Positions 5,046 through 36,699 of a stretch of 39,753 bases of DNA are shown here, in pieces. Source of the stretch: Candidatus Egerieousia equi (GTDB lineage Bacteria > Bacteroidota > Bacteroidia > Bacteroidales > UBA932); contig JAGHUC010000136.1 in assembly GCA_018065035.1 (NCBI GenBank), positions 1-39,753 on the forward strand. Direction: 5' to 3'. The notes beneath the pieces were generated by a model. That model searched no databases. It saw only the letters and a program-made list of their open reading frames with translations, and was not told the DNA's origin. The translations under genes and the position numbers were made by a program. Each line of letters begins with the position of its first letter. Positions within the stretch are counted from its first letter, which is position 1.

Positions 5046-6215
5046 ATGGAGAGTATGAGAAAGAGATTCATCAATTACGCGTCATTGTGCATCATATCAT
5101 GCACAATGATGGCAAACTGTGCCAAAATGCCTGCTGAAAACAACGGAGCCGGCCCGGAATCTGAAAAAGAAAAAATTACCGGGAGCGGATGCTTTTCCGT
5201 AAGAATCCACGACCCTGCTGTTCCGGATGGAAATCATCGCAACTTCAAGGAAGGGTCCAAGACCCTGTCACTTACAGGAATGGACACCAGCAATTTCATT
5301 CTGAGCATTTATTCGCAGGATGGCAGTAAAGTCTATGACGGGAAGTATGGGAAAAGGCCTGAATCATTTACAGTGAAAAGCGGATGTTATAATGTAAAAT
5401 TACTATCAAAGGAATTCGGCGTTCCTGAATTCAATAATGAAATAGTTGGAGATTCGCAGGACATTGTCATTGAGAAAGGCAAAACCTTTACTGTGGAATT
5501 GTTATGCAGGCAAATGAACTCCGGCATAAAATTCAATTTCTCCGGCGATTTCAAGAAGCACTTTCCAGGCATTGGTCTGTTCCTGCAGGACATTGCCGGC
5601 GGCATACAATATGCATACGATGAGAAGCGTTTCTGCTATGTAAATCCTGGAACCGTTGATTTCTATTTGAGACGCAAGTCGGCCGCAACGGGTAATGACT
5701 GCTTTCTTCAAGCTTCTGACACGCTGTTGTTCAGCCGTAATCTGAATGCGGCCGATATGCTAAGCTTCAATTTCGAATGGTCGGAGAATACCACCAGATC
5801 AAATTTCTCGGTCAGAATTGACACAAGCAGAAACTGGCAGACAGACAGGTACAACCCCGGAAGCATCATTCCAGAAGGGGCGCTTACAATAGAGCAGGCA
5901 AAGGAGAAACTAGGACAGAAAAATATTACCGTCTTCGGTTATATTCTAGGTGGTGATGTGAAGGAAAGCTCCTTCCGCACAGGTCCTCCGTTCTCTGTGA
6001 GCAGCAATCTGCTCCTTGCGCCATCGATGAGTGAAAGATACAGGAACAACTGCTTTGCAATAGAATTGCCCAGCGGTGCTGTGAGGGATGCCCTGAACCT
6101 TGTTGTACATCCTCAGCTCATTGGCAGCGCCATAACGGTTACAGGCACAATCGTTGAGCAGTACTTCGGCTACATAGGAATGAAAAGCACCAAAGCCTGC
6201 GAAATCCTGAAATAA
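5046..6215 (+). CDS. DUF4493/DUF6359-type surface lipoprotein
   Basis: A 389-residue exported protein. The N-terminus carries a lipoprotein-like signal with a candidate modified Cys at residue 25 (MMANC). Residues about 47-200 resemble DUF4493: SVRIHD, then MDTSNFILSIYSQDGSKVYDG, a SGCYNVKLLS strand and a KGKTFTVELLC strand. Residues about 278-388 resemble DUF6359: ALTIEQAKEKLGQKNITVFGYILGG, SNLLLAPS, and GTIVEQYFGYIGMKS. Both are Bacteroidetes domains of unknown function, usually found on cell-surface or adhesin-like lipoproteins. No enzyme motif is visible. An in-frame ATG at 5055 is an alternative start. The gene stands alone behind an unusual upstream region: a 32-base palindrome, a -7 box and five octamer repeats. 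Confidence 0.75.
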   Translation: MESMRKRFINYASLCIISCTMMANCAKMPAENNGAGPESEKEKITGSGCFSVRIHDPAVPDGNHRNFKEGSKTLSLTGMDTSNFILSIYSQDGSKVYDGKYGKRPESFTVKSGCYNVKLLSKEFGVPEFNNEIVGDSQDIVIEKGKTFTVELLCRQMNSGIKFNFSGDFKKHFPGIGLFLQDIAGGIQYAYDEKRFCYVNPGTVDFYLRRKSAATGNDCFLQASDTLLFSRNLNAADMLSFNFEWSENTTRSNFSVRIDTSRNWQTDRYNPGSIIPEGALTIEQAKEKLGQKNITVFGYILGGDVKESSFRTGPPFSVSSNLLLAPSMSERYRNNCFAIELPSGAVRDALNLVVHPQLIGSAITVTGTIVEQYFGYIGMKSTKACEILK

Positions 6216-10338: not shown

Positions 10339-11421
10339 ATGGAGTTGAATTTAGTGAGCAAATCAAGCGCGGAAAAGTTCCTCGGGTATTTCCAAGGTGC
10401 CGGGAGGGTTGTGCTTGTTGGCCATGCGAACCCCGACGGAGACTGTCTGGGCTGCACCAGCGCCATGCTTCACTATCTGGAGGATATGGGCATTGCTGCG
10501 AATGTGATAGTTCCCGGCAAGGTTCCTGAGTTCCTGAGGTTCCTGTTCAGCGAAAGGAATGGCGTGCACAAGGAAGACGCATTGGTGGAGTTTGACAAGC
10601 GCCCTGAATACAGTGCGGAACTGGTTCAAAAGGCGGATCTTATCATCTGTATGGATTTCAATGCGTTGCACAGGGTTGATGATCTGGCCGGCATTCTTCA
10701 GAGCGCTTCAGTTCCCAGACTGCTCATTGACCATCATCCGCATCCCCAGGAGCAGGATTTCAACCTTATGCTGCTGGAAACTGAAATCTCGAGTGCGAGC
10801 GAACTCACTTTCTGGCTCATAAGGTCAATGAATGAGCTGACAACCATCGCCAGTGGAAAAAAGAAAGAGATAAGCATGCCTCAGGCTGTGAGTCTGTATA
10901 CAGGCATGATGACAGATACAAATAATTTTGACAACTCAGTATTCCCTTCAACTCATAGGATGGCGGCGTATCTGCTTGAACTGGGTGTGAACAGCGAGGC
11001 CATCCAGTGGGCTGTGTTCAATTCCTACAGGGAGAACAGGATCAGGCTCATAGGCTATCTCACCGGCAGCAACATGAAGGTGGATTACCGCCTGAAAGCC
11101 GCCTGTATGACCCTTTCCAGGGAGCAGCAGGAGAATTTCGACTTCAAGGATGGCGACACCGAGGGAGTTGTGAACATGCCTCTTGCCATAAAGGATGTGA
11201 TGATAAGTGCATTCTTCACCGAAGGGAAGACAATGACAAGGGTATCGCTGCGCGCCAAGGGCAATTTTGTGGTGAACGCATTTGCGGCAAAATATTTCAA
11301 CGGAGGCGGTCATCCAAGAGCTGCCGGCGGCAGAATTCAGGACATTCCGTTCAAGGACATTGAAACATATTTCTTCAAATGTCTGGCGGAATACATTGAC
11401 CATATGGAAATCGACAATTAA
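10339..11421 (+). CDS. DHH-family phosphoesterase (NrnA-like)
   Basis: A 360-residue cytoplasmic protein of the DHH/DHHA1 family, most like NrnA-type enzymes that degrade nanoRNA or pAp. Metal-binding motifs are in order: VGHANPDGDCLG (about residues 28-38), ICMDFN with Asp106, and DHHPHP (131-136). The C-terminal DHHA1 domain has the substrate loop GGGHPRAAGGR near residue 326. The ATG at 10339 is preferred to a TTG at 10318, which lies at the predicted transcript start. It heads a plus-strand run with two FKBP-like lipoproteins, a DUF3822-like protein and rsmD; the next gene starts 13 bases after its stop. Whether it cleaves nanoRNA, pAp or a cyclic dinucleotide product cannot be told from sequence. 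Confidence 0.9.
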   Translation: MELNLVSKSSAEKFLGYFQGAGRVVLVGHANPDGDCLGCTSAMLHYLEDMGIAANVIVPGKVPEFLRFLFSERNGVHKEDALVEFDKRPEYSAELVQKADLIICMDFNALHRVDDLAGILQSASVPRLLIDHHPHPQEQDFNLMLLETEISSASELTFWLIRSMNELTTIASGKKKEISMPQAVSLYTGMMTDTNNFDNSVFPSTHRMAAYLLELGVNSEAIQWAVFNSYRENRIRLIGYLTGSNMKVDYRLKAACMTLSREQQENFDFKDGDTEGVVNMPLAIKDVMISAFFTEGKTMTRVSLRAKGNFVVNAFAAKYFNGGGHPRAAGGRIQDIPFKDIETYFFKCLAEYIDHMEIDN

Positions 11422-14197: not shown

Positions 14198-15226
14198 TTA
14201 ATCCTCGGCGGAAGCAAGACGCTCGCGAATGCGACCCTCTATCTCCTCGGCCAGCTCCGGATTGTCAAGCAGAAGCTGCTTGACGGCATCACGCCCCTGA
14301 GCAAGCTTGCCCTCGTTATAACTGAACCAGCTGCCGCTCTTCTTGATTATCTCGAACTCAACGCCCATATCAATGATTTCACCAATCTTTGATATGCCCT
14401 CGCCGTAGATAATGTCAAACTCGGCCTTCTTGAAAGGAGGAGCCATCTTGTTCTTGACAACCTTCACGCGGGTACGGTTACCGGTAGCATCATCGCCATC
14501 CTTCAACTGCGTAAGCTTGCGTACATCAAGACGTATTGACGCATAGAACTTGAGAGCGTTTCCACCGGTTGTGGTCTCAGGATTTCCGAACATCACTCCC
14601 AGTTTTTCCCTAAGCTGATTGATGAAGATGCAGCAAGTGTTGGTCTTGCTTATGTTGGCTGTGAGCTTTCTCAAAGCCTGGCTCATAAGACGTGCCTGAA
14701 GGCCCATCTTTGAATCTCCCATCTCCCCCTCAATCTCCGCCTTTGGTGTAAGAGCCGCAACAGAGTCAATTACAATAATGTCAATTGCTCCGGAACGGAT
14801 AAGGCTGTCTGCTATCTCAAGTGCCTGCTCACCGCAATCCGGCTGGGAAATAAGCAAGGTATCCACGTTCACACCCAGATTCTTTGCATAAGTCCTGTCA
14901 AATGCGTGCTCGGCATCTATGATTGCTGCAATTCCGCCGGTCTTCTGTGCCTGCGCAATTGCGTGAATAGCAAGCGTTGTTTTACCGCTGCTCTCAGGTC
15001 CGTAAATCTCAATGACCCTGCCTTTAGGGTAACCTCCTATTCCAAGGGCGTGGTCCAAAGCAATTGAACCGCTTGGAATCACAGGGACCTCCAATACAGG
15101 TTTGTCACCAAGTTTCATGATTGTACCTTTACCAAAATCCTTCTCGATCTTGGCAAGGGTAGCTTGCAAGGCTTTCATCTTTCCTTCCTGGACACTAAGG
15201 TCCATTTCATCTACATCTTTAGCCAT
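14198..15226 (-). CDS. recA: Recombinase RecA
   Basis: RecA forms filaments on single-stranded DNA, drives strand exchange and triggers self-cleavage of LexA-like repressors. The protein is 342 residues, slightly shorter than E. coli RecA. The Walker A motif GPESSGKT is at residues 76-83, and the conserved segments [27 protein letters not shown] and [21 protein letters not shown] follow. It is intact. The gene lies downstream of trpS on the same strand, with a 180-base repeat element filling the space; the element ends 16 bases before the ATG. I found no clear -7/-33 promoter or LexA box in that space. Confidence 0.98.
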
Positions 15227-15242
15227 AGTAATAAGTTATTTG

Positions 15243-15422
15243 CTCAAGTTTCGCAAGCATTAATTTAATTATTTTCAAGAACTTGCGGGAGGCTTGCGAA
15301 ACTTCTTCCCACCGCACTTTCCTGATGTTCTACCCTCTCCCTAAATCCCTCTCCAAGAGAGAGGGACTTTTTCATCGGCATAAATGCCTCTAAAATAGGT
15401 GTTTCGCTATGCGAAACTTGAG
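15243..15422 (-). repeat. Intergenic hairpin-ended repeat, copy 1 (180 bases, upstream of recA)
   Basis: This element is shared with 36368-36665. Its ends are inverted (CTCAAGTTTCGC and GCGAAACTTGAG). The left arm folds on itself through a perfect 13-bp stem (15246-15258 with 15292-15304), and the right end is a hairpin (GTTTCGC-TAT-GCGAAAC, 15401-15417). The middle contains a REP-like hairpin (CCCTCTC / GAGAGGG). It fills almost all of the trpS-recA gap: the last base touches the trpS stop codon and the first base is 16 bases from the recA ATG. It encodes no protein. Confidence 0.88.
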
Positions 15423-16532
<1,110 letters not shown>

Positions 16533-35308: not shown

Positions 35309-36352
35309 CTATTTGTGTATTTCTTTTTCAATGGCATCGAGCCTTTCTGTAAGTTCACTGTAGAATTCAGGCATGTTCTTGAACAGAGCATATGCCTTCA
35401 TATAAACCTTATGATCGATTGCAGGCGATCCAAGCAGGATCTGACCCGGTTTTCTCACATTGTTCGTAAGTCCTGTCTGAGCTGCCATTGTGGTGTTGTC
35501 CGCAACTGTCAGATGCCCTGCCAGACCTGTCTGACCGCCGAACATGCAATGCTTTCCAACCTTTGTGGAACCTGCCACTCCGCACATTGCAGCCATCACG
35601 GTGTCCTCCCCTATTTCAACATTATGCGCAATCTGAACAAGATTGTCAACCTTTGCACCCTTGTGTACTATTGTGGAACCCATGGTTGCCCTGTCAACTG
35701 TTGTGTTCGCACCTATCTCAACATCATCCTCTATGATAACGTTTCCGGTCTGAGGAATCTTCTTGTAATGGCCTTCATCAGTAGGGGCGAATCCGAAGCC
35801 ATCGGCACCTATCACACAGTTGGCATGCAGAATACAGTTGTTTCCAATCTTGCAGCCGTCATATACCTTCACACCCTGATAGAGAATCACATTCTCTCCT
35901 ATCTCCACGTTGGCTCCGATGTAAACCTGCGGATATATCTGGCTTCCTGCTCCGACCTTGGAGCGTTTTCCTATACATGCGAATTCACCAACGTAAACGC
36001 CCTTGCCCAGCTTGGCGCTGAAAGCAATCGAGCTCCTCCAGCTTCTGCCGCTTCTCTTTGCCGCCTTGAGCGAGTTGAGAAGATCAAGCAGGGAAGCAAC
36101 CGCGCTGTAAGCGTTGTCCACCAGGATGAGGGTAGGTTCGTATTTGTAGTCAGGTTTGTAGAAGCTTCTGTTGAGAATTATCACGCTTGCCTTGCAAGTG
36201 TACAGATACTGCTCGTATTTCGGATTGGCAAGAAAACAGATATTGCCTTTCTTTCCGTATTCTATCTTGTTGACGGACGACACTTTGGTCATAGGGTCAC
36301 CCACAATCTCTCCATTGAACTGGGCGGCTATCCTCTCCGCTGTAACTTCCAT
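35309..36352 (-). CDS. lpxD: UDP-3-O-(3-hydroxyacyl)glucosamine N-acyltransferase
   Basis: LpxD N-acylates the LpxC product in the third lipid A step. The 347-residue trimeric enzyme has an N-terminal uridine-binding domain ([36 protein letters not shown]) and a left-handed beta helix of hexapeptide repeats from about residue 110. The catalytic His is expected in [16 protein letters not shown] (near residue 245). It is the first gene of lpxD-lpxC-fabZ-lpxA-wbqC. Its leader is predicted to be about 340 bases and to contain repeat copy 2, which ends 15 bases before the ATG. Confidence 0.97.
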
Positions 36353-36367
36353 AAGAATTTCAATTTA

Positions 36368-36665
36368 CTCAAGTTTCGCAAGCATTCTATTTATTACTTT
36401 TCAAGAACTTGCAGGAGGCTTGCGAAACTTCTCCCCACCGCACTTTCTTGGTGTTTTACCCTCACCCTAAATCCCTCAGTCAAAAAGTAACACTTTTTGG
36501 CTGAACTTGAACTTTAACCCCCGCTGCACATGGCAGCTGCCCCCAGGGGCATTGCGCTTCCACTGCGTTTCAGCGGGCACCTTAAGGTGCCTTGGCTAGT
36601 CAGGGACTTTTTCATCGGCATAAATGCCTCTAAAATAGGTGTTTCGCATAAATGCGAAACTTGAG
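36368..36665 (-). repeat. Intergenic hairpin-ended repeat, copy 2 (298 bases, upstream of lpxD)
   Basis: The first 109 bases and last 64 bases match copy 1 (15243-15422) closely, including the inverted ends, the left-arm stem and the right-end hairpin (GTTTCGCAT / ATGCGAAAC). The middle differs: where copy 1 has 11 bases, this copy has about 125 (36477-36601) containing four hairpins, among them a 12-bp stem with a 3-base loop (36477-36503) and a perfect 16-base palindrome (36576-36591). The rest of the 36353-36750 gap holds only the promoter at 36700-36730; no protein-coding gene is seen. Confidence 0.88.
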
Positions 36666-36699
36666 TCAGTTTATTGTTAAAAAAGTCCTTCAAATTTTA

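Follow-up and report, generated by a model that had tools for sequence, protein, structure and literature searches.

Short repeats before recA, lpxD and other genes of Candidatus Egerieousia equi are probably MITE copies with ISPepr1-type ends

Two repeat copies before recA and lpxD

Bacterial repeats of the MITE kind tend to settle behind genes, where they do the least harm. The window analysed here (the whole stretch of 39,753 nucleotides, contig 24 of the host assembly) carries two copies of a repeat, E1 and E2, situated just before the start codons of recA and lpxD and reading in the direction of these genes. This raises the question of whether they constitute a 5' leader element or reflect an insertion preference for such sites, the two possibilities offered by a first-pass annotation of the sequence, or whether their placement arose in another way. 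The reading preferred here, to which a joint probability of about 0.7 is given, is that they are non-autonomous MITE copies, dependent on a transposase made elsewhere and amplified in this species only, and that their sense-only bias results from selection. The features of the two copies (window coordinates) are as follows.

15243..15422, minus strand: E1, 180 bp, with the short middle, located between trpS and recA and sense to the latter
36368..36665, minus strand: E2, 298 bp, long-middle type, in the lpxD 5' region, sense to lpxD
15236..15242, minus strand: E1 target duplication, recA side, CAAATAA
15423..15429, minus strand: E1 target duplication, trpS side, TAAATAA, taking in the trpS stop codon, 6/7 identical
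36360..36367, minus strand: E2 target duplication, lpxD side, TAAATTGA
36666..36673, minus strand: E2 target duplication, upstream side, TAAACTGA, 7/8 identical
15243..15255, no strand: E1 gene-proximal terminal inverted repeat, exact 13-mer, partner 15410-15422
15410..15422, no strand: E1 distal terminal inverted repeat, exact 13-mer
36368..36380, no strand: E2 gene-proximal terminal inverted repeat, exact 13-mer, partner 36653-36665
36653..36665, no strand: E2 distal terminal inverted repeat, exact 13-mer
15246..15304, minus strand: E1 gene-proximal hairpin, 13-bp stem 15246-15258 / 15292-15304
36371..36430, minus strand: E2 gene-proximal hairpin, 13-bp stem 36371-36383 / 36418-36430
15219..15260, minus strand: E1 mini-ORF, stop beginning 5 nt past the A of the recA ATG
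36365..36385, minus strand: E2 mini-ORF, MLAKLE*, stop 15 nt ahead of the lpxD ATG
15346..15374, plus strand: E1 antisense intrinsic-terminator-like hairpin, TCCCTCTCCAAGAGAGAGGGA CTTTTTC, facing transcription in the opposite direction to the gene's
36478..36601, minus strand: E2 alternative GC-rich, REP-like middle, also present in copies C51 and C97
36700..36707, minus strand: likely lpxD promoter -7 box, TATCTTTG, of the Bacteroides TAnnTTTG type (consensus from PMC7366714), upstream of E2
14198..15226, minus strand: recA (TIGR02012), gene downstream of E1
35309..36352, minus strand: lpxD (TIGR01853), gene downstream of E2
15423..16532, minus strand: trpS (TIGR00233), gene upstream of E1, its stop codon abutting E1

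The sequence that the first-pass annotation described as shared by E1 and E2 is real and beyond chance (E = 4e-36), with two aligned blocks of 111 bp (91% identity) and 64 bp (95%) and a 124-bp alternative middle in E2; 21 matching stretches were returned from the genome by DNA search. Read gene-wise, both copies start with CTCAAGTTTCGCAT and finish with GCTTGCGAAACTTGAG, the final 13 bp being the inverted repeat of the initial 13 bp. The annotated matching ends (CTCAAGTTTCGC/GCGAAACTTGAG) were recovered at both edges of each copy, and the annotated 13-bp stem was found to be AAGTTTCGCAAGC/GCTTGCGAAACTT in both. The identity of the downstream genes was upheld by the profile matches, as was the spacing, with E1 and E2 ending 16 and 15 bases before the ATGs on the strand of the genes. 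As the upstream boundary of E2 is preceded by the likely lpxD promoter box, E2 would lie inside a transcribed leader.

Ends, target duplications and empty sites

Each end of the element carries a 13-bp terminal inverted repeat, CTCAAGTTTCGCA, of which 14 exact matches were counted, against none in the control reading. Copies of 180-298 bp are too short to hold a transposase, and the only coding feature noted in them was a mini-ORF. Target duplications of 7-9 bp, rich in AT, were identified around seven copies; three were perfect (C39, TATGAATTA, 9 bp; C150, TTATAGTG, 8 bp; C51, TAATGACA, 8 bp), while those of recA, lpxD, C13 and C63 (before rpoD), of 7-8 bp, showed 1-2 mismatches.

Relatives, in which the first-pass annotation had suggested that copies be sought, did not yield them. 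The exact end 13-mer was not found beyond chance in 38 congeners, and in the nearest relative, UBA1751 (G042), the seven orthologous sites before recA, lpxD, pth, the C150 gene, purA, the sigma-factor gene and the C40 gene were free of the element. UBA1751 was seen to hold a dispersed palindrome of its own, GGCCAGACACGGGC..CCCGTGTCTGGCC (10612-10647; 5536-5573; 152-185), unrelated to the family described here.

Elements of the REP/BIME class are palindromes with a GTAG/CGTC-type tag, moved by TnpA-REP. Only the variable middle of the present element is REP-like, and its boundaries and duplications would indicate DDE transposition instead.

The family in the host genome

The host assembly is a 1.92-Mb draft of 150 contigs with 95.7% completeness. 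An exhaustive pattern search with a 20-mer of the right end (up to 3 mismatches, 0 hits in the control) returned exactly 13 right ends in the genome, along with a few remnants. Eight copies are complete: five are of 180-184 bp (short) and three of 296-298 bp (long), the latter with a GC-rich middle that was complete only within these three and partial in a fourth. The right end alone is kept in C56, C143 and C69, and its last 25-26 bp alone in C76 and C40. Furthermore, C21 was identified as a degenerate whole copy, C18 as a left-half remnant and C17 as a copy truncated at the edge of a contig.

The modules lying between the two arms are exchanged among copies, with three unrelated middle sequences; the third kind of GC-rich middle was observed in C56 (12387-12520), before the sigma-factor gene. 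In C63 (1663-1692), 59 nt before rpoD, the two ends are joined in a 30-bp remnant flanked by an imperfect duplication of 8 bp; it looks like the product of an internal deletion between GCGAAAC stretches that recur in both ends. The same contig carries, at 14669-14913, apparently intergenic hairpin units (CGAGCAGGTT..AACCTGCTCG) in five tandem repeats.

Copies E3 (C36, 14480-14663) and E8 (C97, 134-430) share nearly the same ssb 3' flank with few differences, E3 leading into a HAD phosphatase gene and E8 into purA. E8 is probably the original site, because UBA1751 has ssb directly before purA; E3 may then derive from recombination between copies or from a misjoin, an assembly chimera, as repeats at contig edges can be chimeric in a fragmented draft. 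Conclusions were unchanged when E3 was left out. No description of this MITE family was found in the open-licence literature.

A likely parent element

The end 13-mer was found in 44 of 393 Bacteroidales genomes; it clusters clearly in some families, and the control reading gave few matches. In these genomes it bounds unrelated MITEs of 28 to 347 bp, many of which have AT-rich duplications of 7-9 bp (e.g. TTAATAA, TCAATTA, TTATCAA). A complete but broken IS of 1624 bp (G229:C30) has the ends CTCAAGTTTCGCA/TGCGAAATTTGAG and the duplication TTAATTA. Its transposase piece was assigned to NF049925 of the IS4 family (287 bits, cut-off 250), and a YREK motif (YQIRWSIEVFFKESK) could be read in its sequence. 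An apparently intact IS (1573 bp, both 13-bp ends perfect) was identified on a Tenacibaculum finnmarkense plasmid, its flanks giving only a partial duplication match, and near-identical ends were found for Segatella and ISBf8 elements. The transposases of the Tenacibaculum, Segatella and ISBf8 elements likewise belong to NF049925, giving four elements above the cut-off with G229:C30.

Members of the ISPepr1 subgroup of the IS4 family have ends of the form YT-AA-YTT---A with 5'-CT, lengths of 1500-1600 bp and AT-rich duplications of 7-8 bp (PMC2266710). Every fixed position of the end consensus YT-AA-YTT---A is matched by CTCAAGTTTCGCA. The likely parent is an ISBf8-like IS of the IS4 family, of 1.57-1.62 kb and with an NF049925 transposase, which is filed as ISPepr1-type because its ends, size and AT-rich duplications closely fit the published subgroup. 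The window element would thus be a MITE of an ISPepr1-type IS, presumably mobilised by such a transposase. The non-autonomous, MITE-like origin proposed by the first-pass annotation is strongly supported by the terminal repeats, target duplications, empty sites and a parent IS with identical ends.

The absence of a transposase near the copies, also noted in that annotation, extends to the whole draft genome, in which no parent IS was found (0 PF01609/DDE_Tnp_1 matches). On this ground the transposase source may be missing from the draft or already lost. Draft genomes often lose multicopy IS, and a parent IS in the same genome is usual for MITEs, although not required for old or orphaned ones. 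Among the other candidates, PF01609 transposases of 10 genomes were rejected as parent for having other ends, and following up fragments at contig ends in G036 and G344 led to no parent transposase. The right-arm pattern had no match in the genome and viral contig collections, and end 16-mer matches in viral contigs, mostly inside genes, look like chance.

Otherwise unrelated MITEs of 73-347 bp were observed with the same ISPepr1-type ends in several Bacteroidales families, and such elements may together form a wide and apparently undescribed superfamily. In another Bacteroidales genome (G395; 1511-1538, 1673-1700), dispersed 28-bp perfect or near-perfect palindromes consisting of the two ends only (CTCAAGTTTCGCATTTGCGAAACTTGAG) were observed.

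Position and direction relative to start codons

All 13 right ends were found to be sense to and upstream of an ATG, 12 of them within 20 nt, so that the fixed position seen in the window holds genome-wide. Listing of distance and orientation, as proposed with the first-pass annotation, showed copies neither randomly placed nor randomly oriented. Distances to the ATG were 16 nt (recA), 15 (lpxD), 12 (C36), 1 (pth), 6 (C13), 68 (C150), 2 (C51), 2 (purA), 2 (sigma factor), 2 (mnmG), 20 (ugd), 2 (mtnN) and 15 (C40); recA and lpxD were named by profile match and the other downstream genes by eye from sequence. Most copies stand in short gaps between codirectional genes. A promoter box of the TAnnTTTG type (consensus from PMC7366714) was found upstream of the element at lpxD, C150 and mtnN, and the element there would therefore be in the leader. 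The left-half remnant C18 is a counter-example to the sense-only rule, being antisense and approximately 95 nt from rpsP.

Ordinary scatter in a compact genome could force copies close to starts, with direction a matter of luck or ascertainment, and the median codirectional gap of 16 nt shows that closeness is partly forced. Against this, a null was built from 296 gene gaps in 358 kb of the host genome using simple ORF calls, a sample enriched for element-bearing contigs, so that its values are estimates: the per-gap probability of sense placement was 0.53-0.58 (13 of 13 sense, p ~3e-4 to 8e-4), and that of sense placement within 20 nt was 0.09-0.25 (12 of 13, p < 5e-7). Copies in longer gaps were also found near the start, with 85 nt on one side and 15 nt on the other at lpxD, and 73 and 1 nt at pth. 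Scatter is considered very unlikely.

A choice of target by the machinery itself, which would insert one way after recognising start regions (for example by TAATG-like sites, or because the DNA is open or transcribed), is unlikely as the whole explanation. It agrees with the five copies exactly 2 nt before the ATG, with duplications such as TAATGACA, and with duplications that are AT-rich and often begin with TAA or TTA. However, direction choice by the transposase is improbable because both ends are the same 13-mer, from which it should be unable to read the direction of the element. In other Bacteroidales, MITEs sharing these ends are found 0-320 nt from genes in gaps of all three kinds (codirectional, divergent, convergent), with no uniform placement. 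The insertion preference suggested by the first-pass annotation is consequently retained in part, AT-rich target choice and short operon gaps accounting for some of the placement but probably not for the orientation.

The other suggestion of that annotation, a 5' leader element, is borne out as regards the fixed position, a dedicated leader function remaining hypothetical. A domesticated cis-acting RNA switch or attenuator governing recA, lpxD and the other genes jointly would agree with the strong predicted structure (-58 to -107 kcal/mol), with the element lying downstream of a promoter and ahead of the start codon at lpxD and C150, and with a single compensatory change in the right stem, read from the alignment. 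Neither a known RNA family (no Rfam match in the window) nor a covarying conserved structure was found, and the REP-like middle is swapped among copies in three unrelated versions. Moreover, the genes (recA, lpxD, pth, purA, mnmG, ugd, mtnN, an ABC permease and a sigma factor, mostly named by eye) share no obvious pathway, and the copies are species-specific, missing from all orthologous sites checked. Such a role is considered very unlikely.

Probable selection after insertion, possible antisense termination and the mini-ORF

Selection after insertion is the simplest and most likely cause of the sense-only bias, and a better reading than insertion preference alone. An IS4-family transposase (ISPepr1-subgroup, ISBf8-like) would move the MITE in trans into AT-rich targets of 7-9 bp, which in a compact genome would lie mostly in codirectional gaps and in short leaders behind promoters. 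Direction would be random at first, with antisense insertions then lost. Of the 8 complete copies, 7 have on the antisense strand a hairpin of -12.8 to -18.3 kcal/mol with a T tract behind it, and a flipped element would for this reason tend to stop transcription; such an intrinsic terminator ahead of the downstream gene would silence it. On the sense strand of complete copies terminator-like hairpins are absent or weaker, and a sense copy would be read through, joining the leader or intercistronic RNA. Movement by this transposase, a selective origin of the bias, termination and translational coupling are inferred from the sequence.

Copies are absent between convergent genes, which make up approximately 19% of gap length, an absence that is weakly informative with 13 copies. 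As these gaps are vacant even though an antisense terminator would be harmless there, polarity alone is an insufficient explanation.

The last 18 bases of the right end read ATG CTT GCG AAA CTT GAG (mini-ORF ATGCTTGCGAAACTTGAG), and 12 of the 13 copies conserve this ATG. In 11 of 13 the frame terminates within the interval from 15 nt before to 5 nt past the A of the gene's ATG, for which the null given the distances is ~0.003, a value confounded by the tendency of duplications to begin with TAA. Bacteroidota are without Shine-Dalgarno sites. Initiation in this phylum relies on A at positions -3, -6 and -12/-13 of the start site and on low structure (PMC6847099). In copies 1-2 nt from the ATG, the start context of the gene is poor (9th-16th percentile) and that of the mini-ORF ordinary (27th-67th), and for this reason ribosomes may plausibly restart from the mini-ORF, which usually ends at the gene start. 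The C76 and C40 remnants (25-26 bp) retain exactly the mini-ORF module. At the sigma-factor junction, where the genes overlap (ATGA) in UBA1751, the element recreates a TAATG overlap in the host. A further idea, more doubtful than not, is that of a portable translation-restart module, in which translation of a six-codon ORF, preceded by an A-rich start of the Bacteroidota type, would open up the terminal hairpin and stop at the start codon of the gene, keeping operons coupled when the element lands between their genes.

Folding revealed no consistent difference in start-site accessibility among sense, flipped and empty versions, and start sequestration was dropped as an argument since folding did not separate the directions. 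Position-matrix scores at the gene's own start did not favour sense over flipped. Right-arm stops in all three frames ahead of the mini-ORF were dropped after a hand check, and no TAnnTTTG box that could form a hidden sense promoter in the element was seen by eye in the aligned copies.

Comparison with known systems

A sense-only family before the starts of genes in housekeeping operons (recA, lpxD, purA, pth, mnmG) offers a natural experiment on the tolerance of leader insertions in Bacteroidota, and it reveals a wide, apparently undescribed set of Bacteroidales MITEs with ISPepr1-type ends. With the ISPepr1 subgroup of the IS4 family the window elements share their ends and AT-rich duplications of 7-8 bp; the parent type is 1.5-1.6 kb with YREK, whereas the window elements are of 180-298 bp without a transposase, the parent not being found in the same draft. 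The BrickBuilt, MITE293 and MITE700 elements of Porphyromonas gingivalis (PMC4596501) are likewise short, intergenic and multicopy, with IS-derived ends, and found in Bacteroidales. BrickBuilt, however, differs in its ends and in its distance from genes (49-591 nt), while the family described here is mostly within 20 nt of starts and in one direction.

The BOX, RUP and SPRITE repeats of Streptococcus pneumoniae (PMC3049150) are alike in their IS-like ends, exchangeable modules (BOX), terminator-like hairpins (SPRITE) and small ORFs (BOX), but they are over-represented between convergent genes, whereas the window family lies upstream of genes. Rickettsia palindromic elements (PMC10969869) are also mobile repeats that accommodate the translation of host genes; they are found in frame inside genes, in contrast to the window element, which stands before the start with a separate mini-ORF.
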